DNA of 64,000 nt from Gemmobacter sp. 24YEA27 (GTDB taxonomy: Bacteria; Pseudomonadota; Alphaproteobacteria; Rhodobacterales; Rhodobacteraceae). Location of the stretch: positions 1,912,001-1,976,000 of the forward strand of contig NZ_JASJPW010000001.1 of NCBI RefSeq assembly GCF_030052995.1. The letters are read 5' to 3'. The notes under the pieces are model-generated. The model ran no database searches and was not told where the DNA came from. It saw only the letters and a program-made list of their open reading frames with translations. Positions 17,713 to 39,890 of the stretch are shown here, in pieces. The translations under genes and the position numbers were made by a program. Numbering within the stretch: position 1 is the first letter of the stretch; each line of letters begins with the position of its first letter.

Positions 17713-18981
17713 ATGGATTCGATTCTGGTTAAGGGCAACGGCGCACTCAACGGGGTGATTCCCATCGCGGGCGCCAAGAATGCCTGTCTGACACTGATGC
17801 CGGCGACGCTTTTGTCGGAAGAGCCCCTGACGCTGACCAATGCGCCGCGGCTCTCGGATATCCGCACCATGACGAGCCTGCTCGAATCACTCGGCGTTGA
17901 GGTTTCGGCGCTGCAGGATGGCAAGGTTATCACCATGTCGTCGCATGGCACGCTGAACCCGACGGCGGATTACGATATTGTCCGCAAAATGCGGGCGTCC
18001 AATCTGGTCCTTGGCCCGCTGCTGGCGCGGCTGGGTCATGCGGTTGTGTCGCTGCCCGGGGGCTGTGCGATCGGCGCGCGGCCGATGGATATTCATATCG
18101 ATGCGCTCTCGGCGCTTGGGGCCGAGATCGATCTGCGGGACGGCTATCTCCATGCGAAGACGCAGGGTGGGCTGAAAGGCGCGGTGCATGAGATGCGTTT
18201 CGCCTCTGTCGGGGCGACCGAGAATTTCGTGATGGCGGCGACGCTCGCGAAGGGCACCTCTGTCCTGAAAAACGCCGCGCGCGAGCCGGAAATCGTTGAT
18301 CTTGTTCAGTGTCTGCGCCGCATGGGCGCCGAGATCGAGGGCGAGGGCACCTCGACCATCACCATCCAGGGCGTGACCAGCCTGCGCGGCGCCACCCATC
18401 CGGTGGTGACCGACCGGATTGAGCTTGGCACCTATATGCTCGCGCCCGCGATCTGTGGCGGTGAGGTGGAATGCCTGGGCGGGCGGATCGACCTGCTGGC
18501 GGCGTTCTGTGAGAAACTCGACGCGGCGGGGATTTCCGTCACCGAGACCGAAAAAGGTCTGAAGGTCGCGCGCAAGAATGGCCGCGTGAAGGCGGTTGAT
18601 GTGGTGACCGAGCCTTTCCCGGGTTTCCCGACCGATCTCCAGGCGCAGATGATGGCGCTTTTGTGCACCGCCGAGGGCACGAGCGTGCTGGAAGAGAAGA
18701 TCTTCGAGAATCGCTTCATGCATGCGCCGGAACTGATGCGGATGGGCGCCAGAATCGAGGTTCACGGCGGTCATGCCACCGTGCATGGCGTCGAGAAACT
18801 GCGCGGCGCGCCGGTGATGGCGACCGATCTGCGCGCGAGCGTGTCGCTTATTCTTGCCGGGCTCGCGGCCGAGGGGGAGACGGTGGTGAGCCGGGTCTAT
18901 CACCTGGATCGCGGCTATGAGCGGGTCGAGGAGAAGCTTCTCGCCTGTGGAGCGCATATCGAACGGATCAGTGGCGTCTGA
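17713..18981 (+). CDS. murA: UDP-N-acetylglucosamine 1-carboxyvinyltransferase
   Basis: The 422-residue enzyme has the EPSP synthase-like double fold and MurA motifs: [18 protein letters not shown] with the UDP-GlcNAc-binding K-N pair near the N-terminus, and [20 protein letters not shown] with the catalytic cysteine that adds to phosphoenolpyruvate and is the fosfomycin target. It commits UDP-GlcNAc to peptidoglycan synthesis in the cytoplasm. Length and motifs are complete. The DUF2948 gene follows after 10 bp. Confidence 0.97.
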
Positions 18982-18991
18982 GGGGGCGGAT

Positions 18992-19468
18992 ATGGCAGAT
19001 GCACGTTTCGAGGATGGCGAAGAGGCACCGCTGAAGCTGGTGGCGCTGGAGCCAGAGGATCTGACGGTGATCGCCAGCCTGATCCAGGATGCGGTTCTGC
19101 CGGCCAGTGAGATGAAATATGATCGCAAGCGCCGCCGTTTCGCGGCGCTTGTCAATCGCTTCCGCTGGGAAGACAGCGATTTTGCCGAACGTTCCGGCCG
19201 TGCCTATGAACGGGTGCGCAGCCTGTTGACGGTTGAAGATGTGCTGGATGTACGCAGCCAGGGCATCAGCCCGGGCGACGCCGATCAGGTGCTGTCGGTT
19301 CTGGATCTGGCTTATGCGCCGGGCGAGGATGGCACCGGGGCGCTGACGCTGATCCTCGCCGGAGACGGGCTGATCGAGCTGCGGCTGGAAGCCCTGGAAG
19401 TGGTGCTGACCGATGTGACAAAGCCCTATCTCGCGCCATCGGGGAAGAAGCCGGAACACCGGGACTGA
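18992..19468 (+). CDS. DUF2948 family protein
   Basis: The 158-residue protein (PLKLVALEPEDLTVIASLIQ, then AVLPASEMKYDRKRRRFAAL and LILAGDGLIELRLEALEVVL) matches DUF2948, an alphaproteobacterial family of unknown function almost always next to murA. No membrane segment or signal peptide is present, so it is probably cytoplasmic. Its start is 10 bp beyond the murA stop, with GGGGGCGGAT before ATG, so the two form an operon. Confidence 0.88.
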   Translation: MADARFEDGEEAPLKLVALEPEDLTVIASLIQDAVLPASEMKYDRKRRRFAALVNRFRWEDSDFAERSGRAYERVRSLLTVEDVLDVRSQGISPGDADQVLSVLDLAYAPGEDGTGALTLILAGDGLIELRLEALEVVLTDVTKPYLAPSGKKPEHRD

Positions 19469-19513: not shown

Positions 19514-20032
19514 TCAGCCGGGCGGGCAGGAGGTCAGCCAGAGCTGATCCCAGGGTTCATCCCCCGGGCTGGTGAAAATGGCATAGCGCAGCTGGCGCCC
19601 GAGATCGGTGAAGAGGAGGCTCGGCGGAGCCTTGTGGCCCTCGATGGGGAAGGCGCCGATCTGGTTGCCCTCGACCGAATAGACCAGACCCTCCCAGACG
19701 CGGCAGGCCTCAAGCTGTTCGTCAGAAGGCGCATCTTCGGGCCCGGGGGGCGGGCAGCCGTCATAAATCACACCGGTATCGCGGCTGGTGCCCATATTGG
19801 TGCGGATCTCGCCCCAGAGCATGCGCCCGTCCCGGGTTTCAATGTCGAAAATCGCAAGCACCATGCCGCTTTGTTCCCAGCTTTGCAGCGGTCGGAAGCT
19901 GAGGCGGAAGCCGGTTGCCTTGTCGGTATAGACGGATTGGGTCACCGGGCAGGCGACGTCCGCAAGTGCGGGCGCCACAAGTGATGTCAGCGCGAGGGCG
20001 AGGCCCGTGCGGCCGAGGAGGGGGCGGATCAC
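19514..20032 (-). CDS. Secreted protein of unknown function, coupled to tyrS
   Basis: A 172-residue protein with a Sec signal peptide ([21 protein letters not shown]) and a mature domain with several cysteines ([28 protein letters not shown] and LWLTSCPPG at the C-terminus). The family is not recognised. Its ATG overlaps the tyrS stop (ATGA at 20032-20029), so it is translated from the tyrS transcript. Likely periplasmic with one or more disulfides. Confidence 0.72.
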
Positions 20033-21348: not shown

Positions 21349-22503
21349 ATGGGCAGCATGGCGGAAAGAGATCCCTGGAAAAGTGCCGTCCAAAAAGGGG
21401 AGAGCGGCCCGGCGGTCTGGGCCCTTGGCACCATGTCGGGAACTTCGCTTGACGGTGTCGATGCGGCGATGGTGCTGACCAACGGCCATGAGGTGCTGGA
21501 ATTCGGCCCCTCGGCCTTTCGCCCCTATACGGCGGCCGAGCAGGCGATCCTGCGTGCAGCCCTCGGGCGCTGGCCCGGCGAGCCTGGCGTGGCCGAAGCC
21601 ACCGAGATTGTCGAAACCGCTCATGCCGAGGTGATGGCGCGCTTTGACGGCGTGCAGATCGCGGGCTTCCACGGCCAGACCCTGGCGCATGATCCAGGGG
21701 GGCGCGGCACGCATCAGGCGGGGAATGGCCAGCTGCTGGCCGATACGCTCGGGCTGCCGGTGTTGTGGGATTTCCGTACCGCAGATGTGCAGATGGGCGG
21801 GCAGGGCGCGCCGCTGGCGCCGTTCTATCATTTCGCGCTGGCGCGCCGGATCGGCGCGACGGGGCCAGTGGCGTTCCTGAACCTGGGCGGCGTTGGCAAC
21901 CTGACCTGGGTGGACCCCACGCTGCCACATCCGCAATCCGATGGCGCGCTGCTGGCTTTTGACACTGGCCCTGCCAATGCGCCGGTCAATGACCTGATGC
22001 AGGCCCGACTTGGCAAAAGCCATGACGAGAATGGCGCGGTGGCGGCAAAGGGACGGGTGAAAAAGCCCGTGCTGGATCAGTTCCTCGCCCATCCGTATTT
22101 TCTGAAAATGCCGCCAAAATCGCTGGATCGCGATGCGTTCGCGGGGCTGGTCGCTGCGGTCAGAAAGCTCGACACGGCGGCAGCGGCGGCCACACTCACT
22201 GCAGCGGCGGTCTCGGCGGTGGTGGAAGGCGCTAAACATTTCCCGCGCCCGGTGTCGCGGCTGCTTGTGACCGGCGGCGGGCGGCATAATCCGGTGATGA
22301 TGAAGGGCCTCGCAAAGCGGCTTGGCTGCCCGGTCGATCCGGTCGAGGCGGTGGGGCTGGACGGGGATATGCTCGAAGCCCAGGCCTTCGCCTTCCTCGC
22401 GGTGCGGGTGGCGAAGGGGCTGCCGACCTCATGCCGGACAACCACCGGCGTTGCGGCCAATATCGGCGGCGGCACCCTGTCGCGGCCAGCCCTGTCAGAC
22501 TGA
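21349..22503 (+). CDS. anmK: Anhydro-N-acetylmuramic acid kinase
   Basis: A 384-residue sugar kinase of the ASKHA fold: [18 protein letters not shown] is the N-terminal ATP phosphate-binding motif, followed by [25 protein letters not shown] and [14 protein letters not shown], all typical of AnmK. It converts anhydroMurNAc to MurNAc-6-phosphate in cell-wall recycling. ATG at 21349 follows AAAGGA; the in-frame start at 21358 is also possible. It diverges from tyrS, an arrangement common in this family of bacteria. Confidence 0.94.
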
Positions 22504-27447: not shown

Positions 27448-29034
27448 TCAGCTCCAGTAAGAGAGGGAAACGCCTGCCAGATAGAAGCAGACGGCGATGA
27501 CGTATTGCCCAGCATCGTTGTGGTGGACCCCATCAGAACGAAGGGAAGGCGGGATAGAGCCGACCGCGATGGCGGCGAGGTCGTCGCTGGTAGGCGTTAG
27601 CCCTGCGACCTGAAAAGCCCAAAGCGACGAAAGCATTGCCCGAATGTTCACAAAGCGCGGGCCGAACTCTTTCAGATATCGCGCTTCCATCTCGGCGTTT
27701 GTGGCGGCGTTGACGCCTGTCCGGGTCCAGACGAGGAAGCGACCGGCCCGACCCTGACTGGTCCAGTTGATCATGGCCCAGTTCATCCGGATCAGGTCTT
27801 CAAGATCCGAATAGCCACCATTCTGACCGATGCCGATGATGGGGAAACCATCCCGATAAGCGTCATAGGCAGCGGTTTTCACCCTACAGGGTGAAGGCAT
27901 CATGACCGCAGCGCCGGCTGCGGCCCGCGTAAAGCGATAAACGACCGAGGTGTCTTCGAGAACATGGCGGGACAGGGTGCCGCGAATGCCACATATCTCC
28001 ACCGGGTTTACCCCAAGGCTCCCCTGCACGAGAGGCGCAACAGAGAGACCGTCCTGATAGGTCAGTGTGATGTCCACTGGCGCTGTATCTGCCGGGATGT
28101 TGTTTCCCGGAAATCCTGCAAGAAAGCTGAGCGCCGATGTACGGGCGGTAATGGTGCGCGCGGTCTCGCCACCGATACCCATTGGATCATGGGGGATGCC
28201 GGTAAGGTTGGACAGGACATCGCGCCAACGATTACCAGCAGTTCCGCCAGCGCCAGCGCTCAGGCTGTCCCCAATGGGTAGCAGACGATCAGGCGGACGA
28301 TCCCAAAGGTTTGCGACAGGCATGCGCTCCTGGAACCACGACAACAGCCGCAGCATGACCCGGTCTGTCAGATGCCCGGCCTCATCCAGTTCGAGATCCG
28401 AGCTGTTGCCGTCCTCATCGGTGATCGCGAACGAGACGGTTGCCTGTTCTGGCAGATCGGCTGCCGTCACCCCGCCAAGCGAAGCCGGTGGCAGGAAGGG
28501 AGCGACACCCCCCGCGATATTCTCAAGGGCGCGCGGCGTGAAATGCCCCTCAGGGTCAAGCTCGACATCGGATGCATTGCCGTCTTCGTCAGTGATGGCG
28601 AAGGAAATCTCCGCAGCCGGTGCAATCGCGCCGAACCGCGCATCGCCGATCTGGCTCTGCAATTGCTCCATGTCTGACCGTTGCGCCTTGTCAGAAAGCG
28701 CCGGCACGCTGGGCGTCGTCGCGATCAGCGTGGCAACCCCGCCTGCATCGTGCCGGTAGATGTAGAGCGCGACATCCGGATCGGCCGAGGTCAGGTTAAA
28801 GGTCTGATCCACCTCAGTGGCGGCGAGGCCCTCGACCGTGGTCGGGTAGATCTTGGTCTGATCGCGCTCGAGGTTACGGAGGTCCTCCATACCGTCTGCA
28901 ACAGGACCAGTTGCCACCAGTTGAGTGGCGAAATCATTGAAAGCCTGACGCCCGGTCCCATCGGGGCCGTTGACCAGCAGCTCTGCCGAGATACTGACGC
29001 GCGCGATGTTTTCAGAGCTGATGCCGCCTGCCAT
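27448..29034 (-). CDS. Tail fibre with C-terminal SGNH/GDSL hydrolase domain
   Basis: The 528-residue protein has an N-terminal fibre part with two near-identical repeats (SFAITDEDGNASDVELD and SFAITDEDGNSSDLELD, ~165 and ~215) and a C-terminal SGNH hydrolase. Block I is LLPIGDSLSAGAGG (nucleophile Ser), a glycine block is MGIGGETART, the asparagine block is IGIGQNGGYSD and block V is SDGVHHNDAG with the Asp and His. SGNH domains in tail fibres typically deacetylate surface polysaccharide. The enzyme would act outside the cell during host recognition. ACAGGAGACAGG precedes ATG. Confidence 0.8.
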   Translation of the reverse strand: MAGGISSENIARVSISAELLVNGPDGTGRQAFNDFATQLVATGPVADGMEDLRNLERDQTKIYPTTVEGLAATEVDQTFNLTSADPDVALYIYRHDAGGVATLIATTPSVPALSDKAQRSDMEQLQSQIGDARFGAIAPAAEISFAITDEDGNASDVELDPEGHFTPRALENIAGGVAPFLPPASLGGVTAADLPEQATVSFAITDEDGNSSDLELDEAGHLTDRVMLRLLSWFQERMPVANLWDRPPDRLLPIGDSLSAGAGGTAGNRWRDVLSNLTGIPHDPMGIGGETARTITARTSALSFLAGFPGNNIPADTAPVDITLTYQDGLSVAPLVQGSLGVNPVEICGIRGTLSRHVLEDTSVVYRFTRAAAGAAVMMPSPCRVKTAAYDAYRDGFPIIGIGQNGGYSDLEDLIRMNWAMINWTSQGRAGRFLVWTRTGVNAATNAEMEARYLKEFGPRFVNIRAMLSSLWAFQVAGLTPTSDDLAAIAVGSIPPSLRSDGVHHNDAGQYVIAVCFYLAGVSLSYWS

Positions 29035-29086
29035 GCCTGTCTCCTGTGGGATCAGTCATGGCTTTACGCGCGCGCGCGATGATGTT

Positions 29087-29105
29087 GGTCCGGACATCTG
29101 TCCGG
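29087..29105. repeat. 19-bp palindromic element, copy A
   Basis: GGTCCGGACATCTGTCCGG, containing CCGGACA and TGTCCGG arms around TC. It lies 53 bp upstream of the minus-strand tail fibre start and 72 bp upstream of a plus-strand cargo gene. An identical copy is at 36645-36663. Confidence 0.85.
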
Positions 29106-29176
29106 GCGCTGCCCCGGCCACTATTCAATTGCTTACAAGGCGGTGTAGGGTTTGAGATTTAGAGGACGGAGGTTTT

Positions 29177-29875
29177 ATGAATTTTGTTTCCTTGGTCATC
29201 GGAGGAACACCTCCGACATCCCCGACGTGGCTCTCTGCTGTTTTACCAGGAATCACCGTTGCGCTAGGAGCAGGCATAACGCTGTTCCTGCTGAACTGGC
29301 TCAGAGAGTGGCTCACAGCGCATTGGAAGCGCAAAACCGATGCCGGAGTACTCGCCTTTTCACTCGTGACTGAATTCGACCGCCTCGTCGGTGACTGCAC
29401 AGAGGTGATCAATGATCCTTTGCAAGTTAATGGACAAGGCTGGCGCGCGACAGTGAACTCTCCCAGGATGACTTTTCCCGAAAGCTGGGACTGGCGATGC
29501 TTTCCGTCGAAGCTTCAGTACAGAATCCGGTCCATCCCGAACCAGATCGCGCTAGCGGACGGCTACGTGCATGACCTGTATTTCTACGGCGAAGGCCCTC
29601 CAGAATATGAAGACGCCTTTGATGAGCGCATTCTACGCTATGCAGCAATCGGTATTGAGGCAGTTTTGATCAACGAAACCCTCGCTAAGGAATATGGTGT
29701 GCCCTTGCTGGACCGAGGTGACTGGGATCCTGTGGAAAAATTCAACAGAGAGATTCAGAAAATTAGGGTCAAGCACAAGGTAGCAGAAGCAAAGGCAAAG
29801 GCGGCTCGTCGGAGGAAGCCGACCAACGCGCGCGCTAAGGTTGCTTCAGACAACCATGACGCTGAACGGCCCTGA
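29177..29875 (+). CDS. Membrane-anchored cargo protein of unknown function
   Basis: A 232-residue protein, the first of two plus-strand genes inside the minus-strand prophage operon. After a short N-terminus, SAVLPGITVALGAGITLFLL forms one transmembrane helix; the rest is a soluble, largely helical domain with WDWRCFPSKL and a Lys/Arg/Ala-rich C-terminus (VAEAKAKAARRRKPTNARAK). GGAGGTTTT precedes ATG. It overlaps the 3' end of the J gene by 30 bp tail to tail. Its separate strand and lower GC mark it as a moron-type gene; I do not recognise its family. Defence or superinfection exclusion is plausible but unproven. Confidence 0.7.
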   Translation: MNFVSLVIGGTPPTSPTWLSAVLPGITVALGAGITLFLLNWLREWLTAHWKRKTDAGVLAFSLVTEFDRLVGDCTEVINDPLQVNGQGWRATVNSPRMTFPESWDWRCFPSKLQYRIRSIPNQIALADGYVHDLYFYGEGPPEYEDAFDERILRYAAIGIEAVLINETLAKEYGVPLLDRGDWDPVEKFNREIQKIRVKHKVAEAKAKAARRRKPTNARAKVASDNHDAERP

Positions 29876-32800
29876 AACCGGCCCCGGCACACCCTCGGAG
29901 GTCTGCGGCTCGAGCCAGACAAAATGCTCGCCTTGCGAGAGACAGGCGGCTGTCTCGAGATAGGCGACGACACCGGTGATCGAGCCGTCAAAATCCGCAG
30001 ACGCGAGGAACTCGATGCGGGTGTTTCCGGTGACCGCCTGGATGCGGTCGAGATGCTCGCCATTCCCTGACGCCGCCTGCCCCGGACGGGTGCTGCCGCC
30101 GCTGAGGCGGGGCGTGACCGTCCCGGCCGTGCGCCCCGTCACAGTGAAGGCGAGGCGATACCATTTGCCCGTGATGGTTTCGAAGCTCTGCCCGATCACA
30201 TCGGCCGTGCCGGGTGTGTGTGTGGCGAGACCGCCTGAAACTTCCCATCCCGCTTCGGCATCCCATGCGGCCGGGTTTGTCATCAGGCCGCCAGTGACCA
30301 GATTAGATCGCGTGGTGTCTCCCAGCGGGATCGACATCGCCTGCAGAGGCGTCGAGCTGTGCGCCGCGCCAACCGCATCTGTCTCACGATAGAGCAGATC
30401 CCAGTCTGCCCGATAAATCTGGATCCGGGTTGTCAGGGCATCGTCGCCGGTGGAAAGCTGGATCAGAGCGCCGCCGAGCAGCGGCGTGATGGAAATCGCC
30501 TCCTGATCCAGCGCCGCCGGCAGATCGATGCTGCCACCGACCAGCAGGGTCAGCTCTGTCGTTCGGGGACCAGCGATTCCATTGGCTGAAATTGCCCGCG
30601 CGCGGATCTGGACGGTTTCACCGGAGCTATACTCCTCGATGCTGCCGCCGCCATTCGCGGCTGGAATGCTGACAGTCGTCCAGATGCCCGACGTGCCGTC
30701 GCGGTGATCGACTTCGAAACTGGCGGTGCTGACCGGCCCGCTGCCCGCCACGAGGGAGTAGAAGATGAACCCCGCCTCATCCGTTTCCGCCACGCCGAAA
30801 CTGACGCCGGAAAACCGGGGCGCGGGCGGCTGCATGGTATTCTCGCCGATCTCGGCGCCGACCCGGCCGGACCAGGGCGGGATCTCGGCCGCGTCCGTCA
30901 GCTCGTCGATGATGTCGGCGGCGGCAACCGCCCGGATGATCGCACATTGATCGGTGGTCGCTTCGATATTGGTGACCACGAGGTCAAAGCTGTCCTGCCC
31001 CATTATGCCGAAATGCACGATGTCATCCGCCGCCGGCACCGGCCCCGTGCCAGTCATCGTCAGCAGCACCGTTTCCCCGGGAACCGTCCGGACAGGGCGC
31101 ACAACCGACTGGCCAATGGTGTCAGGTGCCATATGCGGGGGGCGGCTCTCATAGACCCGAAAGCGCAGGGCGTAGCTCGCCCCCTCGGCCATGGTCATGA
31201 GATTGTCGATTTCGACCAGCTGGCCCTGAACCAAACGGACGCGGGCAACCTGCTGGGTCTGGCGCAGAACATAATGGTTCAGCGCCACCTTGTCGCCTCG
31301 TGTCGCGACCCGCAGAAGGCCATCCTGTGTGACCTCGATCACGTCGGGGCGGTGCTCAGCCTCATGAAAGCGACGGGTCGCCTCGCGCCAGACGATGGCC
31401 GCATTGGTCAGGCCGGGCAGCGACAGCTCCTCGGTCAGGGTGATGTCACCCTCATAGCCCGGACGGCGCACGATCCGCCTCGCCTCGCGGAAATCGTTCT
31501 CCTCGTCGTTGAAGGGCACGATCCAGGCATGGGGCTTTTCAGTATAGGTGCGGCGCAGGTTGAAATCCCAGCTGTTGCGCGGGCTGATATGATCGACGAT
31601 CAGACCCTCGGGCCGGTCGATGACCACGCCCCATTTGCGACCGTCATGGCGCGGTGACGCCCGGCCGGCGGCGGCGATCTCGGCCCGCGCCTCGCGCAAG
31701 GTCATGCCCGCCTGGTCCAGAACCCGGTTGTAATGCAGCTGCCTCGTCCGACAAAATTCGTGCCAGTCGGCCAGCAGCTCCAGATCGATCTGATCATCGC
31801 GCTGGCGGCGGGGATTGAAGGGTGCCTGAAGGGCGAAGCGGAAAAGGCTTGCGGGGTTCGAGGTCGGGCGTTCGATCCAGGTGCCGGTTCCCTGGTCCCA
31901 GTCGAGGCACCGCCGCGCCACAAGGGCGCTGAAATTGTCCAAAGCGCCAGACAGCTGATGTGTGGCTTTGACCCGCATCGCGACCAGCGCCAGCGGATGC
32001 GGGTAGTCAATCGGATATTCCGGCCGAAACGTCTGCAACGCGGCCCAGACCGTGCGCATCTGGACTTTGTCGTCATCGCTTTCCACGCTGAGCATGGTGC
32101 AGCGGATCTCCCAGCGACCGCGCGTCGGAAATGACCAGGAATGCTGACGGTAAAAGGCCTGCGTCGTTCGGGCCGAGACCGCCAACTCTGTAATGAACTG
32201 CCATTCATCAGATCCAGCGAGCCGTTGTTCGATCCGGACATAGACGGTGATATATCGCCGCTCGCCGTCGTCATCGAAGCGCGCGAGACCAGCGGGAAAG
32301 GCAAGGATGACATTGGCCGAGGCAGCGTCCGCGCCCGTTGTCCGGATCACCGGCTGATCCTCGTCAGGCAGGTCACCTATGACATCGACGGTAACCCATT
32401 CCCATTCGTCCCGGCTGAGCCGTCTCTTGTAGGTCCGCTGGCCGACCTTTCCCCTGATGACATTGCCCTGATCATCCCGCTGCAATGGCTTGATCAGATC
32501 AACGCCGATCTGCTCTTCCAGCACCTGCTGCGGATAGAGGGTGACCGACTCGTCATCTGCCAGACCCTCACGCACCTCGATTTCGACCTCGTCGTAATCG
32601 GCGAGACTGGTTTCGCCGATCCGGAAATCTGACAGAGACAGCGGGCCTTCGCCGAACGCGAAAAGCGCACGGACATACTGACGATCCCCGACGATCTCGG
32701 TGTAAGATCTGGCCGCGAAGGGCGGCGCATATCGGGTCTGACCCAGCACGACCGGCACCGCACCGTCAGGATCCAGCCGATTGCGCCAGCCCGACAAGGC

Positions 32801-33277
32801 GTAGTTAGGCTTCGTTTCCTCGGGCTTGACCGGTGGAATCAGCGCATTGATCAGCAACGACCCGAGCAGACTGACGCCCATACCCACCAAGGCGGATGTC
32901 ACCGCGTAACCAACCTCGCCAGCCACAAAACCCATAGCACCCGCCGCCCAGGCACCAATGGCGACAGCCGCGACAGCCACGACAATCGACAGGACCGCGC
33001 GCAAGGCATTTTTACCGGGGACCAGTCGGATCACGACCCGAACCCCCTCGCGCGGCCTGACGCTTTGCCAGCGTTCCGGCAGCACAACAGCGGATCCCCG
33101 CGCGCTGACCAGTACCACCCGGGCGCGCGCCCTCATGGCGGGTTCAAGACCCGGCAATGCCGCCGCGACAATATCACCGACCGTCATCCCGACCGGCAGT
33201 GTCATCTCGATACGGGCGCTGCCTGGATCAATGGCAGGCGCCGCAAGGACGGGGATGCGGGCCAGGTCACAAGTCAT
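29846..33277 (-). CDS. Host-specificity / central tail tip protein (J-like)
   Basis: A 1143-residue protein. The N-terminal ~170 residues resemble tail assembly proteins with a ubiquitin-like part and glycine-rich membrane-active segments (LSIVVAVAAVAIGAWAAGAM). The rest matches J-type tail tip proteins: NYALSGWRNRLDPDGAVPVV, RSYTEIVGDRQYVRALFAFG and fibronectin-like segments toward the C-terminus. It would form the tail tip that contacts the host. ATG overlaps the stop of the K-like gene. The sequence is intact, unlike the tape measure. Confidence 0.85.
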   Translation of the reverse strand: MTCDLARIPVLAAPAIDPGSARIEMTLPVGMTVGDIVAAALPGLEPAMRARARVVLVSARGSAVVLPERWQSVRPREGVRVVIRLVPGKNALRAVLSIVVAVAAVAIGAWAAGAMGFVAGEVGYAVTSALVGMGVSLLGSLLINALIPPVKPEETKPNYALSGWRNRLDPDGAVPVVLGQTRYAPPFAARSYTEIVGDRQYVRALFAFGEGPLSLSDFRIGETSLADYDEVEIEVREGLADDESVTLYPQQVLEEQIGVDLIKPLQRDDQGNVIRGKVGQRTYKRRLSRDEWEWVTVDVIGDLPDEDQPVIRTTGADAASANVILAFPAGLARFDDDGERRYITVYVRIEQRLAGSDEWQFITELAVSARTTQAFYRQHSWSFPTRGRWEIRCTMLSVESDDDKVQMRTVWAALQTFRPEYPIDYPHPLALVAMRVKATHQLSGALDNFSALVARRCLDWDQGTGTWIERPTSNPASLFRFALQAPFNPRRQRDDQIDLELLADWHEFCRTRQLHYNRVLDQAGMTLREARAEIAAAGRASPRHDGRKWGVVIDRPEGLIVDHISPRNSWDFNLRRTYTEKPHAWIVPFNDEENDFREARRIVRRPGYEGDITLTEELSLPGLTNAAIVWREATRRFHEAEHRPDVIEVTQDGLLRVATRGDKVALNHYVLRQTQQVARVRLVQGQLVEIDNLMTMAEGASYALRFRVYESRPPHMAPDTIGQSVVRPVRTVPGETVLLTMTGTGPVPAADDIVHFGIMGQDSFDLVVTNIEATTDQCAIIRAVAAADIIDELTDAAEIPPWSGRVGAEIGENTMQPPAPRFSGVSFGVAETDEAGFIFYSLVAGSGPVSTASFEVDHRDGTSGIWTTVSIPAANGGGSIEEYSSGETVQIRARAISANGIAGPRTTELTLLVGGSIDLPAALDQEAISITPLLGGALIQLSTGDDALTTRIQIYRADWDLLYRETDAVGAAHSSTPLQAMSIPLGDTTRSNLVTGGLMTNPAAWDAEAGWEVSGGLATHTPGTADVIGQSFETITGKWYRLAFTVTGRTAGTVTPRLSGGSTRPGQAASGNGEHLDRIQAVTGNTRIEFLASADFDGSITGVVAYLETAACLSQGEHFVWLEPQTSEGVPGPVSGPFSVMVV

Positions 33278-33720
33278 CGCGAAGCCTCGGAAACGATGTG
33301 AACAGGCCGTTCAACGGCCTTTGAAGCATGCCGAAAGATCCCGGTCAGACGGTGAGACCAGCGCCCGGACCTGTAATCGGCCAGTTTGGCGCAATCCTCG
33401 CCCTCCATATGGATCATGAGGCCATCCCGGACGACGACACCCAGATGCGAGGTCAGACGCCCGCGCCGGATCACCGCGATATCGAAGGCCTGCGCCGGGC
33501 CGGAAACCGGCGCCCAGAGCGGCGAAACCTCAGCGCCGCCGATCAGCGCCGCGATCTCGCCCTGCTCCTCGGCCGAGGCATAGTCACCGAGGTAATCCGG
33601 CAGCGAGATGCCCAGTTCCTCGCGGTAAATCAGCCAGGCAAGACCCCAGCAATCGCAACCGCCGCGCGCACGGCCGAGATCCTCGAAGGGGATGCCGATG
33701 AAGCGATCTGACCAGTTCAT
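33274..33720 (-). CDS. NlpC/P60-type tail assembly peptidase (lambda K-like)
   Basis: The 148-residue protein has the NlpC/P60 catalytic arrangement: ARGGCDCWGLAWLIYREELG with the nucleophilic cysteine, and RLTSHLGVVVRDGLMIH with the histidine. It resembles the K-type tail tip peptidase, which may open peptidoglycan during DNA injection or process tail proteins. Its start follows the DUF2312 stop by a few bases, and its stop overlaps the J start (ATGA). Confidence 0.85.
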   Translation of the reverse strand: MNWSDRFIGIPFEDLGRARGGCDCWGLAWLIYREELGISLPDYLGDYASAEEQGEIAALIGGAEVSPLWAPVSGPAQAFDIAVIRRGRLTSHLGVVVRDGLMIHMEGEDCAKLADYRSGRWSHRLTGIFRHASKAVERPVHIVSEASR

Positions 33721-33723
33721 AGC

Positions 33724-33969
33724 TTACTGCATCCCGAGCGCGGTCATGTAGACCTCGAGCATGGCTTCGGCTTCCTGGCGCTCATTCGCATCCTGCTTGC
33801 GCAACGATACGATTTTGCGGAGCGCCTTGGTGTCAAAGCCCCGGCCCTTGGCCTCGGCGTAGACCTCTTTCAGCTGCTCGGCGATATCCTTCTTCTCTGC
33901 CTCATATTGCTCGATCCGCTCGATCAGTTGGCGCAGCTCGTCGGCGGTGATGTTGAAAGCATCGTTCAT
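33724..33969 (-). CDS. DUF2312 (GapR-type) protein within the tail operon
   Basis: The 81-residue protein FNITADELRQLIERIEQYEA to KDIAEQLKEVYAEAKGRGFD then TKALRKIVSLRKQDANERQE is a clear DUF2312 match, the family of GapR, which in Caulobacter binds overtwisted DNA ahead of replication and transcription forks. GGGGGCTTCC precedes ATG. The same frame extends upstream to another good start at 34110, giving a possible fusion. A nucleoid-type protein in a tail gene run is out of place and was probably inserted. Confidence 0.85.
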   Translation of the reverse strand: MNDAFNITADELRQLIERIEQYEAEKKDIAEQLKEVYAEAKGRGFDTKALRKIVSLRKQDANERQEAEAMLEVYMTALGMQ

Positions 33970-33988
33970 GGAAGCCCCCATGCTGGTT

Positions 33989-34140
33989 ATGAATGCAGGC
34001 CCGGAATTGGACGCCAAAGCGCCCCCCGCTGAACAGTTGACCGGATCTGAGCTGAAGACAAAGGCCGCACGAGCATACTGATCATCACCAACGATTTCGG
34101 TGTAGGACATGTGCTTCTCCTCATGAATGCAGGCCCGGAA
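33989..34140 (-). repeat. 134-bp unit flanked by 18-bp direct repeats, carrying a J-gene fragment
   Basis: ATGAATGCAGGCCCGGAA occurs at 33989-34006 and 34123-34140. Between them the minus strand has GAGGAGAAGCAC before ATG (34110) and encodes MSYTEIVGDDQYARAAFVFS, closely like the J-protein segment RSYTEIVGDRQYVRALFAFG. The frame runs on into the DUF2312 gene, giving a potential 128-residue chimera. It looks like a partial duplication of tail gene DNA at the end of the upstream gene. Confidence 0.75.
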
Positions 34141-34645
34141 ACCGCAGTTTCGTGAGCCGCCCGGGCGGAAACGGCTCGAGGTCGGTATTCTCGCGCGACA
34201 GCGAGAGGACGATCTCGCCGGCATTGATGTCGGCCGAGATGACCTGAAGGCCGATATGCTCCTCCTCAATCAGGTCCGGCGACGAGGCGAGCACGATGGC
34301 AATGTCGATATCGGGCGGGGTCGTGACCGAAAGCACCAGCTCGACCATCGCACTGTCGAGGTTTTCCAGCACGATCTGGGCAGTGGCCGGCGCATCATCT
34401 GCGTCCCCGGGCAGCACGGCCGAGGCGATGATCCACAAGAACGGCTCCGTCACCGGATTGGCGCCACCCCAGCTGGACCGGGTGCCGTAGATCTCGGGAT
34501 CGACCTGCAAGCGCTCGGTGTTGTCGGTTGAGAGCAGGATCGGCGCGGCCAGCTCCGGATGGCTGATCCGGAAGAGCGCCACCTCGATCTCACCGGTTGC
34601 CGGCGCATCCTGCGCCATGCGGGCATTCAGGCTGAGCCGTCTCAT
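34121..34645 (-). CDS. DUF1833-like phage minor tail protein
   Basis: The 174-residue protein starts MRRLSLNARMAQDAPATGEI and contains IEVALFRISHPELAAPILLS, a DUF1833-type pattern found in minor tail proteins beside tape measure genes. It is acidic and beta-rich. ATG at 34645 overlaps the stop of the preceding gene (ATGA); a longer frame to 34726 only reads that gene out of frame. The last six codons lie in one copy of the 18-bp direct repeat, so its original C-terminus may have been altered. Confidence 0.72.
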   Translation of the reverse strand: MRRLSLNARMAQDAPATGEIEVALFRISHPELAAPILLSTDNTERLQVDPEIYGTRSSWGGANPVTEPFLWIIASAVLPGDADDAPATAQIVLENLDSAMVELVLSVTTPPDIDIAIVLASSPDLIEEEHIGLQVISADINAGEIVLSLSRENTDLEPFPPGRLTKLRFPGLHS

Positions 34646-35061
34646 GGCAGCACCACGATGGAAAAGGATTTGCGGAATTCGATCCCGACCACGGTCTCGA
34701 CCGGCAGCTGATCCCCCCAGGCGCAAAGCCAGCGGCCCGCCATCAGGATCGGAACACCGGCGCTGGTCAGCAGAGGCGCCCCACCCGAAGTCAGCAGAGA
34801 CCAGCCTTCGGTGGTCGGATCCGGCATCCAGAAGCGCAAAGCACCCTGGGCGCAGGCATCTTCGAAGAAATTGTCAAAGACCGCGCGCTGATTGCGATCC
34901 AGCAACACCGAGAGCGTGACCAGCTTCGGCACACCGGAAAACCGGCGCCGATAGCGCGGCGGCCCCATATCGGCCTGCGTCTTGCGTCGGGCCTCCTGGG
35001 ATTGCCGCTGCCAGCTGTCCCGTTCGGGGCGCGGCAAGGATGAGGGCCAGACCGCGATCAT
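34642..35061 (-). CDS. Phage tail protein of unknown fold, tape-measure neighbour
   Basis: A 139-residue protein (MIAVWPSSLPRPERDSWQRQ, then LSVLLDRNQRAVFDNFFEDA, then WLCAWGDQLPVETVVGIEFR) similar in pattern to a protein I recall in many alphaproteobacterial Mu-like prophages between tape measure and DUF1833 genes. It is probably a tail assembly component. Both ends are coupled: its ATG overlaps the tape measure stop, and its stop overlaps the next ATG. Confidence 0.75.
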   Translation of the reverse strand: MIAVWPSSLPRPERDSWQRQSQEARRKTQADMGPPRYRRRFSGVPKLVTLSVLLDRNQRAVFDNFFEDACAQGALRFWMPDPTTEGWSLLTSGGAPLLTSAGVPILMAGRWLCAWGDQLPVETVVGIEFRKSFSIVVLP

Positions 35062-35940
35062 CCGCGCCTCGTGGCTGGCTGGCGCAATCCATAGCCCTGC
35101 TGGAGCGCACGGGCGCCGCGACCGCCCGGAGTGGTGATGCCCTCGGCCGTCGCATCCGAGAAGATGAAACGCTGCTGGCGCTGACCGCGCGCGTCGGTGG
35201 TTTCCTCGGTTTCGACCCGGACACCGTTCGAACTGCGATCCTCGAAGGTCTGGTTGATCTGAACGACGGCCGGCGCATTGCTGTTCGCCGCCATGACCGG
35301 CGCGCGCGATGTCAGGATTTCACGGGTCTGCGCCGCGTTGAAGATCCGGGATGCGCCGGTCGCCTCCAGCTCCGGACCATTTTCGCCGACAATGCGCCAG
35401 CCGCCACGGTGATCACCGCCAGAGGCAAAGCCGGGCAGACCGATGGCACTGGCGATCCCGCCGGCCAGGGTTCCGAGGAAGCCCATGAACCCACCCTGCG
35501 CACCGCCCGAGGTGAAACCGTTCACGCCGCTGACGAGCGCGTTGCCAAAGGCGTCCATGCCGGTGCCGAGCGTCCCAAGATTGGCGGTTGCCTGCGTGGC
35601 CGTGGTGCCAAATTTCGCCAGAGAGGCTTCGGCCGCCCCGAGCCGGCCATTCCAGTTATGTGCTCCGGTCGGATTGGCAGCGGTCCAGCCCTGCGGGCGT
35701 TCGAAACCAGCAAATGCCGCAGTCGCCTGCTGAACATTGGTCGAGGCCATGAGCTTTTTCATGGCCGCGCTCTCAGAGGTCTGAAGCTCCTTCCAGACAT
35801 ACTCGAGCTGGGCGTTCACATTGCCGAGGCCAGCCTTGCCGCCGGTCGCCGCCAGCAGGCCATCAGCGCGGTCCTTATGGTGTTGGAACAAGCCGAAGGA
35901 TGTATACTGTCCGTTGATCTTGTCGCCCTGCGCAAGCGGA
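35058..35940 (-). pseudogene. Tape measure / tail lysozyme protein, C-terminal remnant
   Basis: About 290 residues remain of a protein that is normally far longer. KINGQYTSFGLFQHHKDRADG and FAGFERPQGWTAANPTGAHN resemble the phage tail lysozyme/peptidoglycan-binding end of tape measure proteins; further on are the glycine-rich segment AQGGFMGFLGTLAGGIASAI and a long polar C-terminus. The 5' part is lost: just before codon NPLAQGDK the sequence joins the protease gene in another frame. The remnant has no own start. Confidence 0.8.
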
Positions 35941-36588
35941 TTTCTCCTTTTCACGGTTGGGGGGAATGACGGGCGGCGTGTCACCCGAAAAGCTGGGGAG
36001 CGGAGACTTTTCGGCCTCCTCGAGCCAGTCGATTTCCCAGGCGGGCAGTACCTTATCGGCGGCATCGAGACCGTCGCGGTCGATCATCCAGTCGCGGAAG
36101 CGGCGGAAGAGCGAGGCGGTTTGTGCGGCGGCGCCGAATTCAGCGGTGAAAACCACACCCGCCTCACCGGCGAATTGCGCGTTCTTCAGGCCGGGGACGC
36201 CAGGCGCTGCGCCACCGAGGAAACCGAGGTGTTTCGGATACCAGGTGCCCGCGACCGGATTGTGCGCCTGATCCGGGCTGAAGAAGGCCATGGAGACCTT
36301 CTTGAACCGACCGGCTTTGACCAGCCCGGCGAATTCCGGTTCGATCTCGCCAATGGTGGCGAAGAGGCGCTCTTCCTGGCTGTCATAATCGAAGGACTCG
36401 ATCCAGCCATAGGCCGGCGCGTCCGTGGCAGGGTGCCCGATGACGACAGGCGCCGGCGCCGTGGCTGGATCATAGCTGTCGGCCACCGCCTTCAGGTCAG
36501 CGGCGGAATAGGTGATCGCGGCGCCGGCCATCGGTTTGAAGGTGCCGGGGCGGAATACCTCGATACGGGCTGTCAGGGGTTTGGTCAT
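35875..36588 (-). CDS. Mu gpI-type phage protease, C-terminal tail replaced by deletion junction
   Basis: The 237-residue protein keeps the protease core: FRPGTFKPMAGAAITYSAAD, then ATAPAPVVIGHPATDAPAYG (with the conserved IGHP motif), then LVKAGRFKKVSMAFFSPDQA (the catalytic Ser/His region of head maturation proteases). Up to NREKEK it follows the family; the last ~24 residues (SACAGRQDQRTVYILRL) read the tape measure sequence out of frame and stop at 35875. A normal gpI continues into a scaffold region. The deletion thus removed everything from here to the tape measure end, including the major capsid gene. Confidence 0.85.
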   Translation of the reverse strand: MTKPLTARIEVFRPGTFKPMAGAAITYSAADLKAVADSYDPATAPAPVVIGHPATDAPAYGWIESFDYDSQEERLFATIGEIEPEFAGLVKAGRFKKVSMAFFSPDQAHNPVAGTWYPKHLGFLGGAAPGVPGLKNAQFAGEAGVVFTAEFGAAAQTASLFRRFRDWMIDRDGLDAADKVLPAWEIDWLEEAEKSPLPSFSGDTPPVIPPNREKEKSACAGRQDQRTVYILRLVPTP

Positions 36589-36644
36589 GGATATCCGGCT
36601 CGGTCAGGGTGCCGAACTGGTTTCGCATGACGCTGGAGGGGATA

Positions 36645-36663
36645 GGTCCGGACATCTGTCCGG
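36645..36663. repeat. 19-bp palindromic element, copy B
   Basis: Identical to 29087-29105. It lies 57 bp upstream of the minus-strand protease start and on the upstream side of the DUF2971 cargo gene. Equal spacing to the two minus-strand genes suggests a shared regulatory or recombination role. Confidence 0.85.
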
Positions 36664-36908
36664 TCAGCCTGAGAGGGGTGTTTCAGGCCCCGCCCGCACC
36701 ATGCTCTGACGACAGGGCGGCGGTCAATGGGTTTGAAGGCGCCAGGGTTGATCCGAATTGGCCCGTAGAGCGATCCTGACAGGGGCCTGACAGGGGATGA
36801 GCTAATCTGACGGGGGACGTATCACCGACCACCACTTCTATCGCTGACGCGCAAATGTCAGAGTTGCGCATCTTCAACCAGAATCACTTGCCGGAGTTTC
36901 AGTTTCGA
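36664..36908. other. Non-coding DNA between the palindromic element and the DUF2971 gene
   Basis: About 245 bp, AT-richer than the phage genes around it. It probably carries the cargo gene promoter; no sigma-70 boxes were convincing by eye and no second gene was seen. Confidence 0.4.
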
Positions 36909-37772
36909 ATGTCGATGAAGATTATTGCGGCCACTTCGGCGAAAAAAGCCACGCACCTCACTCATTATACGAACTTACAAGGCCTCAAGGGTATCATCAC
37001 GGGAAGAAGTTTGTGGTTGAGCCACGCAAGTTTCCTGAATGACCCAGCGGAGCTCAAGCATGGCTTGAGGCAAGCGAGACAAGTTTTGCGGTATCTCCTC
37101 GATGAATCGGATCGCGATCCTTCGCTTCCCGTCGCGACCGAACGAAGAAAAATTCTTCTGGAGAGACTGATCGCTGAGGTGCCGCAGATAAAAGATCCGA
37201 ATGCCTACGTTACCTGTCTTTGCGAAGAGGACGACCTCCTAAGTCAGTGGCGAGGCTACACCCCAGGCGAAGGGGTGAGTATCTCATTCGAAATTGATGC
37301 CCTGCGGCGGGTGTTCGGCACCAGAGGAGCCGAGCTGCATCAAGTGCAATATGGCATATCCAAACCAACCCGAGGAATTCTGTCAGAACTGAAGAAACAA
37401 CTTCCGGACATCGTTGGTGACTTGGAAAGCTTCATAGGGGAGAGATCGGACGATACGCTGAGTGAAGAATTCCGAAAACTAGTCCAGAAGCTCACACCTA
37501 GGTTCAAGGTGCGAGGATTTCAGGAGGAACGCGAGTGGCGTATCGTTGTCATGGACCCAGAGCGTAGCTTGGTTGAGTTCAGGCCACGTGGGCCGATCAT
37601 GTTGCCATATACGTCCCTGGAAGCCTCAGAACCCTTGCTACCCATCTCCCACATCACAATCAGCCCTGGGGTAAATGACGATGCGGTCGCCGCGAGTTTG
37701 CGTTTGTTTCTGGACCACCATGAATATAAGAAATGCACCGTCCGAAAAAGTTCGACTCCTTACAGAAAATAG
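36909..37772 (+). CDS. DUF2971 cargo protein
   Basis: A ~287-residue DUF2971 protein: HLTHYTNLQGLKGIITGRSL, then LWLSHASFLNDPAELKHG, then TCLCEEDDLLSQWRGYTPGE and a C-terminal EREWRIVVMD block. DUF2971 proteins have an ADP-ribosyltransferase-like sequence pattern in part and often appear in defence islands and as phage cargo; no activity is established here. It is on the plus strand, in lower-GC DNA, and converges with the virion morphogenesis gene 7 bp away. Starts at 36855 and 36915 are alternatives; CCGGAG lies 12 bases before 36909. Confidence 0.8.
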   Translation: MSMKIIAATSAKKATHLTHYTNLQGLKGIITGRSLWLSHASFLNDPAELKHGLRQARQVLRYLLDESDRDPSLPVATERRKILLERLIAEVPQIKDPNAYVTCLCEEDDLLSQWRGYTPGEGVSISFEIDALRRVFGTRGAELHQVQYGISKPTRGILSELKKQLPDIVGDLESFIGERSDDTLSEEFRKLVQKLTPRFKVRGFQEEREWRIVVMDPERSLVEFRPRGPIMLPYTSLEASEPLLPISHITISPGVNDDAVAASLRLFLDHHEYKKCTVRKSSTPYRK

Positions 37773-37779
37773 ATCTGTA

Positions 37780-38313
37780 TCATAATGTCTCTAGCCAGAC
37801 CTCTGCGATGCGGATCACCTCGGCCTCGTCGGCGGCAGAGAACCCCAGAAACGGACGCGCCGGGATATCTCCCCAGGGCATATGCATGAAAAAGTCTTGG
37901 GATTTGGCGCGCTTCGCCGACGGCTTCGTGCGCCCCATCTTCGCGCCAAAGGAACCCTGAGGTGCACCAAAATGCATCACCGCCGCCTGCGGAGCTGGCG
38001 AGCCGATCAGGAGCTGAGTGTCGGAGGCCTGATAGTTGATGCCGGCCGCCATCCGGCTGGTCGCGCGCAAGATCGTGGTGGCGGTGATGCCGGCCTTCTT
38101 GCGGCGCTCCAGGGTGAGCGGGCGCAGGCTGGCCCAGGGTGTCCCGTCCGGGCCGGTTTCGCTGGCGAAATTCCGGGGAATGGCCTCGTCGGTCATGTAT
38201 TCGCCGACGTTCTTGTAGAAGCCTGCCAGGTTCTCCATGCGCGAGGCCAGCTCCGCGAGCCTTGCCCGTGCCTGCGCGTCGTCGAGCTCCGCTCGGAATG
38301 TGATGCCTGCCAC
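37780..38313 (-). CDS. Phage virion morphogenesis protein (Mu gpG-like)
   Basis: A 177-residue protein of the virion morphogenesis family: MAGITFRAELDDAQARARLA, then ASETGPDGTPWASLRPLTLE, then PWGDIPARPFLGFSAADEAE, with the typical TGPDGxPW and PARPFLG motifs. In Mu, gpG and relatives act in tail or head-tail completion. GTG at 38313 has GAGGAGAA upstream. The gene is intact, but its operon is interrupted here by the plus-strand DUF2971 gene. Confidence 0.88.
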   Translation of the reverse strand: MAGITFRAELDDAQARARLAELASRMENLAGFYKNVGEYMTDEAIPRNFASETGPDGTPWASLRPLTLERRKKAGITATTILRATSRMAAGINYQASDTQLLIGSPAPQAAVMHFGAPQGSFGAKMGRTKPSAKRAKSQDFFMHMPWGDIPARPFLGFSAADEAEVIRIAEVWLETL

Positions 38314-38414: not shown

Positions 38415-39890
38415 CTATTTTCTTTTCCAGACCAGCTTGCCGATCCGCTGAGCGTCGAGATGGCGCATATCCGGCTTTGACCGGTTCAGCGGCGCATAGC
38501 CGGTGATCTCGCGCCAGAATTTCCGGCCCAGCTCCATCATCACCACCAGACCATTGCCAGGATCGGCGCGGATGTAGCGACGGGTCAGTGCCTGATCAAA
38601 CTGTCCAGGATGCGCATCGAGCGGCACTTCCCGCACCCCGAGCCAGATTTCGTCAGGATCTGCCAGCGCCTCGGCTATAAGCGCGGCATAGGAGGCATGG
38701 CCGCGCTTATAGCCCTTCCAGCGACCGTCATTGCCGAAGAACATCTCGCCCGAGATCGGGAAACGATGGCCGGCCTTATCCTCGAACAGCGCGGCGCGGC
38801 CGACATCGCCGCCAAGCGGCTGCAGCAGCGCTCGGATGTAATCCTCGGCCGCAAGACCCTCCGGCATGACCGTGGCCTGAAACGGCCGGGCCTTTGCCAG
38901 CAGATCCGCAATCGGCTCCGGCTGATCGATGCTGACAACATGCCGGCCGCGCGGATCGCCGGTCGGGACAGCATCCGGATCCTGCAGGAGGGCTGAAGGC
39001 ACGAGGCCGCGCTCCCAGTGATCACCGGGCATGTAGTCCCAGCCCTTTCCGATTCCCATCGGCTGCATGACCAACTGCCCGGTGGCGCGGTCGATCTGCG
39101 GGATCAGCGCATCCCGGGGTGCTTCATCCGGCCCTGTTTTGCCCAACCGCTCAAGAGACCGGCGCGACAGGGTCCGGACACCGCAGCTGCAGAGCCAGTC
39201 ATTCGGCGGGAAATGGGTATCCCACCACGGGTCGTTCCACATCAGAACGAGGCCATGCCAGCCGAGGTGCTGCTTGCGGGGAACCTTCGGGGTGCGGCTG
39301 TCGCCGTGCAAATACTGCCAGTATGGCCGGAGCTTCACCACATCCGGGTCGCGCATCTGCTTCAGGCGGCCGGCCATGAAGCTGGTGCGGATATTGGTCT
39401 CGAAGATCGTCCGGATCCGCCATTCCCGCTCGCCCTTATAGGACCAGCCATATTTCTCGACGAGGCGGTCGAAGTCCTTGGCGAAGTCCTCGACATAACG
39501 GCCGTTCTCGGCGGCGTCGATGATCGCGGTCTGAAACTCCTCGAGCATCGCGGTATCGGTGACGCCGGCCACGACGAAGGCGCGGTCGTGGATCCCGTGC
39601 ATCGCATCGAGCCAGCTCCTAGTCGGGAGCGGCCGCTTCTGGCGCAGGAAGTCGATCTGTTCCTTGAACGGGAGCCGGCCGGGGGTGATGGCAAAGGCGG
39701 CACCTTCATCATCATCGAGGAAGACATGTTCCCGGCCCTCCCATGCCGCCAGTTCCATCGCATCTGTCAGGATCGAGGCGAGCGGCGCCGGTGTCCAGCG
39801 CGCAGCGAGCTCGAGGAGGCCGGAGAGTGCCGCCGCCCAGCCATCCTCTGTCGCGCCGAAGCCGGTGGCCTGATCGAGAACCTGACGCAC
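38415..39890 (-). CDS. Phage head morphogenesis protein (Mu gp30/SPP1 gp7 type) with PBECR2 nuclease-fold domain
   Basis: Residues ~75-260 form the gp7 minor head domain (SWLDAMHGIHDRAFVVAGVT, then IRTIFETNIRTSFMAGRLKQ, then CSCGVRTLSRRSLERLG). Residues ~355-490 (HRFPISGEMFFGNDGRWKGY, then IAEALADPDEIWLGVREV) match the PBECR2 barnase/EndoU/colicin-like fold. The frame extends upstream of the first usable start (GTG, 39890) to about 39990 with plausible sequence (HVCFSEPDGPVERVVTEALE), which looks like the C-terminus of the DUF935 portal. See the A9 finding: a -1 shift in the portal gene would join the two. Confidence 0.85.
   Translation of the reverse strand: MRQVLDQATGFGATEDGWAAALSGLLELAARWTPAPLASILTDAMELAAWEGREHVFLDDDEGAAFAITPGRLPFKEQIDFLRQKRPLPTRSWLDAMHGIHDRAFVVAGVTDTAMLEEFQTAIIDAAENGRYVEDFAKDFDRLVEKYGWSYKGEREWRIRTIFETNIRTSFMAGRLKQMRDPDVVKLRPYWQYLHGDSRTPKVPRKQHLGWHGLVLMWNDPWWDTHFPPNDWLCSCGVRTLSRRSLERLGKTGPDEAPRDALIPQIDRATGQLVMQPMGIGKGWDYMPGDHWERGLVPSALLQDPDAVPTGDPRGRHVVSIDQPEPIADLLAKARPFQATVMPEGLAAEDYIRALLQPLGGDVGRAALFEDKAGHRFPISGEMFFGNDGRWKGYKRGHASYAALIAEALADPDEIWLGVREVPLDAHPGQFDQALTRRYIRADPGNGLVVMMELGRKFWREITGYAPLNRSKPDMRHLDAQRIGKLVWKRK

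Follow-up and report, generated by a model that had tools for sequence, protein, structure and literature searches.

The 19-bp sequence GGTCCGGACATCTGTCCGG occurs twice, at 29087-29105 and 36645-36663, in a stretch of 64,000 nucleotides from Gemmobacter sp. 24YEA27 (contig NZ_JASJPW010000001.1, positions 1,912,001 to 1,976,000; hereafter, the window). Each copy is very probably an operator in a late promoter of an RcapMu-type (Mu-like) transposable phage, of the kind that depends on an activator of the C/Mor family, and is orphaned in this genome. The palindrome proper is CCGGACA-TC-TGTCCGG (7+2+7), and its core dyad in this genome is CGGAC-N4-GTCCG. In an intact phage, a dimer of C, a Mor/C family protein encoded just before the lysis module, would bind this core at -50 to -37, where it would replace the -35 box and help RNA polymerase to use a poor -10, and the lysis, head, and tail units would thereby be switched on at one time, late in the cycle. 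Copy 2 would represent PI, the promoter of the protease and head unit, and copy 1 an additional late promoter behind J, serving here the tail fibre. The phage in this genome would have lost C along with much of its late region, leaving both sites as relics, and plus-strand cargo genes would have been inserted immediately upstream of these pre-existing late promoters, at the boundaries of transcription units.

The two copies are exact, as the initial annotation had reported, and no further match was found in the window at up to three mismatches; in 100 dinucleotide shuffles of the window, the mean number of such matches was 0.01. Both copies are read on the minus strand. Copy 1 stands 53 bp from the start of the tail-fibre gene (29034) and copy 2 stands 57 bp from the start of the head protease gene (36588), while plus-strand genes begin on their other sides at 29177 and 36855, which agrees in full with the arrangement first described. 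In minus-strand reading, the right half-site of copy 1 corresponds to plus-strand positions 29091-29095, with the dyad centre at 29097.5, and that of copy 2 to 36649-36653. Throughout the genome (5,082,392 bases in 12 contigs, 98.6% complete), the exact 19-mer is confined to these two copies, and three additional places match it with three mismatches.

Short palindromes like this one suit many host regulators, and the dyad might be the operator of such a regulator, adopted by the phage. However, a relaxed form of the palindrome is not enriched in the host, where it occurs at 9 sites, both copies included, vs. 21 for a reversed-pattern control. A host-wide element is ruled out by this comparison, and the wide, random spread over the chromosome that the initial annotation had named as a refutation is not seen. 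In most of the 100 related genomes, forward sites were fewer than, or about as many as, reversed-control sites; the exceptions included G071 (12 vs. 3). The half-site moreover changes across phages together with the phage's own C protein, as described below, and an adopted host operator is scarcely credible.

Late-unit positions and predicted promoter geometry in related phages

Matches to the protease were found in 6 of the 100 related genomes (the window's own, one further genome of the genus, three of the family, and one of the class). A first IMG/VR search yielded 12 loci, this prophage included, and a later one 80 loci with an alignment (the best 80 of 558), to which named phages were added, RcapMu, RcWaterboi, and Rhizobium phage RR1-B among them. 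In RcapMu, the palindrome lies between the stop codon of C and the endolysin gene (13945-13968), and it recurs in the interval that separates the neck gene from the protease gene (22367-22388). RcWaterboi shows the same arrangement, with dyads at lys (13279-13300) and before the protease (21541-21564), and RR1-B carries four copies of one different palindrome at the starts of late units (11530, 18994, 26071, and 31108). The lys and protease sites of the relatives are the places of Plys and PI in phage Mu. Absence from the same positions in related phages had been named in the initial annotation as a refutation; the element is present there, and this outcome favours a control site.

A best-dyad score of at least 11 was reached in 33 of 38 non-redundant intervals at lys and in 52 of 62 at I, the protease site, vs. 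only 1-5 of 38-68 control intervals shifted by +300, +600, or -400 bp. The lys-site dyad stands no more than 45 nt from the C stop codon, with no cargo between, in 33 of the 38 non-redundant intervals. Additional dyads occur downstream of the protease. At 4.4-7 kb, they precede the tail tube gene (G100) or the tape measure gene (RR1-B, L177, L178), and at 12-15 kb, in some phages, they precede baseplate genes (RR1-B, L177, L178, L176) or coincide with the end of J (L174, L175). Of 86 records, a large share of which do not extend to the C region, 49 gave a profile hit to an activator of the Mor/C family; the C protein of G100 is assigned to PF08765/phrog_836. Both unit starts, lys and I, are occupied in the relatives, while the window retains the I position and one behind J, its lys region being gone.

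A conserved signal is also present downstream of the dyad. The first alignment comprised 50 long-stem sites, which remained from 76 after reduction to 52 non-redundant sites and removal, before counting, of two that appeared chance-like (L118 and L163). In 44 of these 50 sites, one A keeps a constant spacing to the right half-site, with an information of 1.60, compared with 1.28 when the sites are aligned on the palindrome centre, a best A of 0.51 on the stem end, and no column above 0.23 on the ATG. A second alignment of 87 non-redundant lys and I sites, which overlaps the first set and excludes the window, was numbered with the conserved A at -11. The bases found were C at -12 (46 sites), A at -11 (70), A or T at -10 (70), G at -8 (54), T at -7 (45), C at -1 (49), and A at +1 (48), a pattern that resembles a poor -10 element plus a CA where the start should be. 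If the conserved A is -11, a dyad with a spacer of 4 covers -50 to -37 and is centred at -43.5. The dyad then overlaps the -35 region and extends upstream of it, as supported by the T at -7 and the C/A at -1/+1. In the Pm promoter of Mu, which has no -35 box, the dyad bound by Mor is reported to extend from -51 to -36, with its centre likewise at -43.5 (PMC4287176).

The arrangement is directional. The A is present in 106 of 150 strict dyads when these are read with the late genes vs. 20 of 150 on the other strand (nominal Fisher p 7e-25; the dyads come from 86 partly redundant records, and two of them are the window's own). By place, it is found in 53 of 62 dyads before the protease, in 29 of 37 behind C, in 7 of 8 from records lacking a tabled protease start, and in 6 of 22 elsewhere. 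Neither alignment included the window copies, and the consensus came from other phages only; both copies have the A where it is required. The predicted -10 of copy 1 is TAAAGC (29061-29066, minus strand), with the -11 A at 29065 and a predicted +1 near 29054, and that of copy 2 is GAAACC (36619-36624, minus strand), with the -11 A at 36623 and a predicted +1 near 36612. From this geometry, we infer promoter activity at both copies and the approximate start sites. The dyad might also act divergently, toward the cargo genes, but this is not supported, the base at the required offset on that side being T at copy 1 and C at copy 2.

Among genome contigs, the exact 19-mer has four hits in four records, one of them Pseudogemmobacter bohemicus (L015), which alone has an A at the promoter offset; these four records weigh neither for nor against an operator. 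The exact 16-mer core occurs in 34 stretches of viral contigs. One of these records, L029, has two hits with the identical 7558-bp spacing and is the same prophage, and consequently is not independent of the window. Two IMG/VR contigs (L018/L050 and L022/L043) contain the exact core twice each.

Some of the sites resemble intrinsic terminators, and the palindrome might primarily close the upstream unit, perhaps acting as terminator and operator together in RcapMu-like phages. In RcapMu, G100, G101, G058, and RR1-B, a stem of 9-10 bp is followed by T-rich sequence, and across 50 sites the eight nucleotides after the stem contain a mean of 4.5 T vs. 1.5 expected. Hairpin folding exceeds that of shuffles in RcapMu (z -4.5 and -4.0) and RR1-B (z -3.2), and a rho-independent terminator is reported to bound the late gene cluster in the transposable phage Fc02 (PMC9936078). 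However, many relatives possess only the short dyad, without a long stem or T tract, the conserved downstream A tracks the distance from the half-site and not the stem end, and the spacer length is constant within each phage, as is needed by a protein dimer but not by a hairpin loop. In the window, no terminator was called at either copy, neither shows the stable GC hairpin and T run of an intrinsic terminator, and neither hairpin folds better than shuffles (z -0.23 and -0.84). Termination as the primary function is unlikely, yet not so unlikely as to be set aside lightly. As a second role in the RcapMu branch it is plausible, because the stem of 9-10 bp, the T-rich tail, and the strong folding all occur there, and the operator appears to be the common denominator of long-stem and short-dyad sites.

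A second, different hairpin was observed shortly before the protease start in L057, L058, L099 (22417-22436), L055, and L103. Its arms change together between phages (GTTCGTC/GACGAAC, GTCCGTC/GACGGAC, and GGTCCAGTGTT/AACACTGGACC), and it is perhaps an RNA operator lying over the ribosome site.

Probable phage-specific operators and the C protein

Among the 49 records with a C protein, three have no tabled protease start and six of the remaining 46 fall below the score, leaving 40 that are scorable. In all 40, lys and I share both the half-site 5-mer and the length of the spacer (32 of 32 when non-redundant), a raw count that does not correct for the tendency of the dyad finder to favour CCGGAC and spacers near 4; random re-pairing of lys and I sites, which keeps this bias, gave a mean of 11.0 agreements and a maximum of 20 in 10,000. 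Between phages, the operator varies in its half-site (GGAC, GGAA, GGAG, or CGAC) and in its spacer (3, 4, or 5).

The C protein varies in parallel. Its RHVRx helix ends in R in every readable GGAC record (32 of 32; RHVRR-type), and of the 13 GGAA/GGAG records, 12 have E, K, G, or H as the last residue (RWVRE, RWVRK, RHVRG, and RHVRH), with operator classes assigned by hand; the exception, L171, combines RWVRR with the GGAA/GGAG class, and the 32 and 13 omit L122, whose helix is unreadable, and L157, L161, and L169, which have other half-sites. The place of the sites in relatives, their promoter geometry and direction, and the changes that they undergo in concert within a phage strongly support one of the two functions suggested in the initial annotation, a late-operon control site, at which C would be the bound protein.

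Several points weigh against the operator model, in addition to the bias of the dyad finder and the exception and omissions just given. Six of 46 records fall below the score, L131, L132, L134, and L138 at both sites and L122 and L169 at lys. The C tree shows approximately four operator changes and three usable independent pairs, so that helix co-variation alone cannot reach significance. C matches Pfam Mor only partly (36.7 bits, cut-off 24.9, 32 residues), and its comparison with Mu C by hhalign gives a probability of 81.5%. A search of solved structures with C returned no Mor structure, its sole hit being a designed repeat protein, which was taken as an artefact. At the third position (+4.0 to +7.7 kb), the A is present in only 11 of 21 strict dyads. 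Finally, both -10 elements in the window are poor, an A at +1 is found in neither copy (the -1/+1 bases are CT in copy 1 and GG in copy 2), and a sigma-70 consensus scan of 28900-36900 found no promoter.

An extension of the operator model is offered tentatively, with somewhat more doubt than belief. Each phage's C would set its own half-site and spacer at all of its late promoters, creating private regulons, and in the RcapMu branch the operator would also have been drawn out into a terminator, such that one palindrome would end one unit, start the next, and insulate the cargo slot. Activator-dependent late promoters are ordinary in kind; what appears to be new is a clade-wide set of phage-specific operators with fixed promoter geometry. 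The literature searched, outside of which lay the RcapMu paper (Fogg 2011), contained no description of such sites in alphaproteobacterial Mu-like phages, and the strings "promoter," "terminator," and "palindrom" are absent from the main text of PMC8601537 and PMC5488378.

Cargo genes and the neck-protease junction

The cargo gene between J and copy 1 (29177-29875, plus strand) encodes a candidate defence protein, predicted by PADLOC as PDC-S67 (E 9.4e-37, residues 31-210). The gene between the neck gene and copy 2 (36855-37772, plus strand) encodes a DUF2971 protein (PF11185), appears as a gap in the comparison with relatives, and has only marginal PADLOC hits (E 0.007). The initial annotation had called both genes foreign; its DUF2971 assignment holds, while its "unknown membrane protein" is now matched to PDC-S67.

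The coincidence of the copies with points of insertion is real at the protease junction. Of 79 records, 60 have 226-391 bp between the neck stop codon and the protease start, and the other 19 have 736-4869 bp. In a second query set, insertions beyond the median plus 400 bp were present at this junction in 20 of 76 records, vs. 4/70, 0/52, 1/77, 0/63, and 0/61 at five neighbouring junctions (pooled, 5 of 323 gene pairs), with a few near duplicates (G054/G102 and G035/L141) included in the counts. The neck-protease junction is a recurrent cargo hot spot. Inserted proteins were scanned in six junction records besides the window, and comprised a C5 methyltransferase and HATPase (L113), a SIR2-like protein identified by PADLOC (L136), GmrSD-like and PIN proteins (L140), a PIN protein (L170), a TPR protein (L151), and an insert without a hit (L161). 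In phage D3112, AcrF2 (18927-19199) lies between 18796 and 19918, which is the same neck-protease junction, and CRISPR-inhibiting genes are reported in RGP G of Mu-like phages of Pseudomonas aeruginosa (PMC4378225).

This hot spot, together with the cargo gene directly beside each window copy, would suit a cargo-recruiting site of recombination or insertion, the other function proposed in the initial annotation. However, the lys-site dyad directly behind C is free of cargo; so is the dyad at the place corresponding to copy 1 in L174 and L175, where it overlaps the last codons of the J homologue. D3112 has cargo at the same junction although it lacks a strict dyad, and a strict scan of cargo-bearing records revealed no second dyad bracketing the cargo (target duplications were not searched for). 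Cargo is thus not found at every site, as would be expected of a recruitment site created or duplicated with its cargo, and recruitment by the dyad is very improbable. Most likely, the dyad at copy 1 preceded the inserted gene, because L174 and L175 carry the J-end dyad in a cargo-free state. As a guess at the reason for the location, an extra gene may do least harm at the boundary between transcription units.

The remnant in Gemmobacter and its relation to known phages

The region around the copies had been described as a prophage, a designation that stands insofar as Mu-like phage genes are present, namely a terminase fragment, a Mu-type portal, MuF with PBECR2, a neck gene, partial protease and tape measure genes, minor tail genes, J, and a tail fibre; in other respects it must be qualified. 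The terminase is a fragment, and the protease continues directly from its N-terminal part into tape measure sequence from the C-terminal part of that protein; on this evidence, the prophage is a deletion remnant, and the fusion implies that the head, connector, and tail-tube genes lying between these two genes in RcapMu are missing here. On the minus strand, the tail-fibre gene (27448-29034; phrog_28673/phrog_11419) is the first of its predicted unit, and the J-like central tail protein gene (29846-33277; phrog_31, PF24801) is the upstream neighbour of copy 1. Of the head maturation protease, only the N-terminal part is present (35875-36588; phrog_976, profile 30-233 of 415), adjoined through the deletion by the C-terminal part of the tape measure protein (35058-36065; phrog_19487, profile 857-1142 of 1147). 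The upstream neighbour of copy 2 is a neck/G-like gene (37780-38313) similar to the neck gene of G100 (21901-22482; phrog_26/PF05069).

No cognate C activator was found in this genome. A profile of the relatives' C proteins (A2) found nothing in it at E <= 0.01, although the search was positive in the controls G054, G058, and G035, genomes that had contributed their C proteins, or near copies of these, to A2, and a search with Pfam Mor (PF08765) gave no match in the genome. The MuA protein of G100 matched in the same three controls and not in this genome; an earlier search with the Pfam Mu transposase domain, which matched no control genome, carries no weight. The failure to find C or MuA, together with the truncation of the first gene behind PI, points to both window sites being relics, and we infer that function has been lost here. 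In a genome of the same genus, G001 (L098), the right half-site upstream of the protease remnant is gone through a 12-bp deletion between CCGGAC repeats (read by eye), as expected for a site no longer under selection.

Among named phages, megablast of the region gave EBPR siphovirus 4 (8% of the query, at 78%) and two tRNA hits, and the tail-fibre protein matched only the same prophage among viral contigs. Elsewhere in the remnant, a MuF-like head protein (38415-39890) carries a C-terminal PBECR2 nuclease domain, and a GapR-like gene (PF10073) resides within the tail module (33724-34269), and the short repeat ccgggcctgcattcat occurs there close to 34000 and close to 34121-34136.

Mu C is reported to bind a related dyad in Plys, PI, PP, and Pmom (PMC4287176). 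These promoters and the Mor-dependent Pm resemble the sites described here in having a dyad over the -35 region and a poor or absent -35 box, in their positions before lysis and protease genes, and in a centre at -43.5, as in Pm (PMC4287176, PMC4461284). In contrast to Mu, the half-sites here are GC-rich (CGGAM/KTCCG), with a spacer of 3-5 nt that is set phage by phage; extra sites stand before tail tube or tape measure genes, before baseplate genes, and behind J; and the dyad is often extended into a hairpin. A strict CGGAM dyad is absent from Mu 9000-36717, so the sites cannot be called Mu C sites, and the sequence is expected to differ between phages.

RcapMu and RcWaterboi share with the operator model the same dyad at lys and before the protease and the same position of the C gene. 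They differ from the window in their longer stem, T tract, intact late region, neck-protease junction without cargo, and lack of a strict dyad behind J. RR1-B is similar in having one dyad in four copies at late-unit starts, but its half-site is CGGAA, its spacer is longer, and its C helix is RWVRE instead of RHVRR. D3112, with its RGP G or anti-CRISPR slot, is alike in carrying accessory genes at the neck-protease junction, yet, tested as an outgroup, it has no strict dyad of the CGGAM kind. This phage (L173) repeats a different 24-mer (21/24 identical) at 10693, after an activator-like gene, and at 19737, before the protease, which is perhaps a late-promoter element of its own.

If these operators are as predicted, they would provide a general and testable rule for finding the late promoters of a large group of transposable phages with no information beyond the sequence. 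They would also supply natural pairs of activator and operator for asking how Mor/C proteins choose their DNA. The slot before the protease promoter, which holds AcrF2 in D3112, is a cargo slot in these relatives too, and may indicate where new defence and counter-defence genes should be sought.

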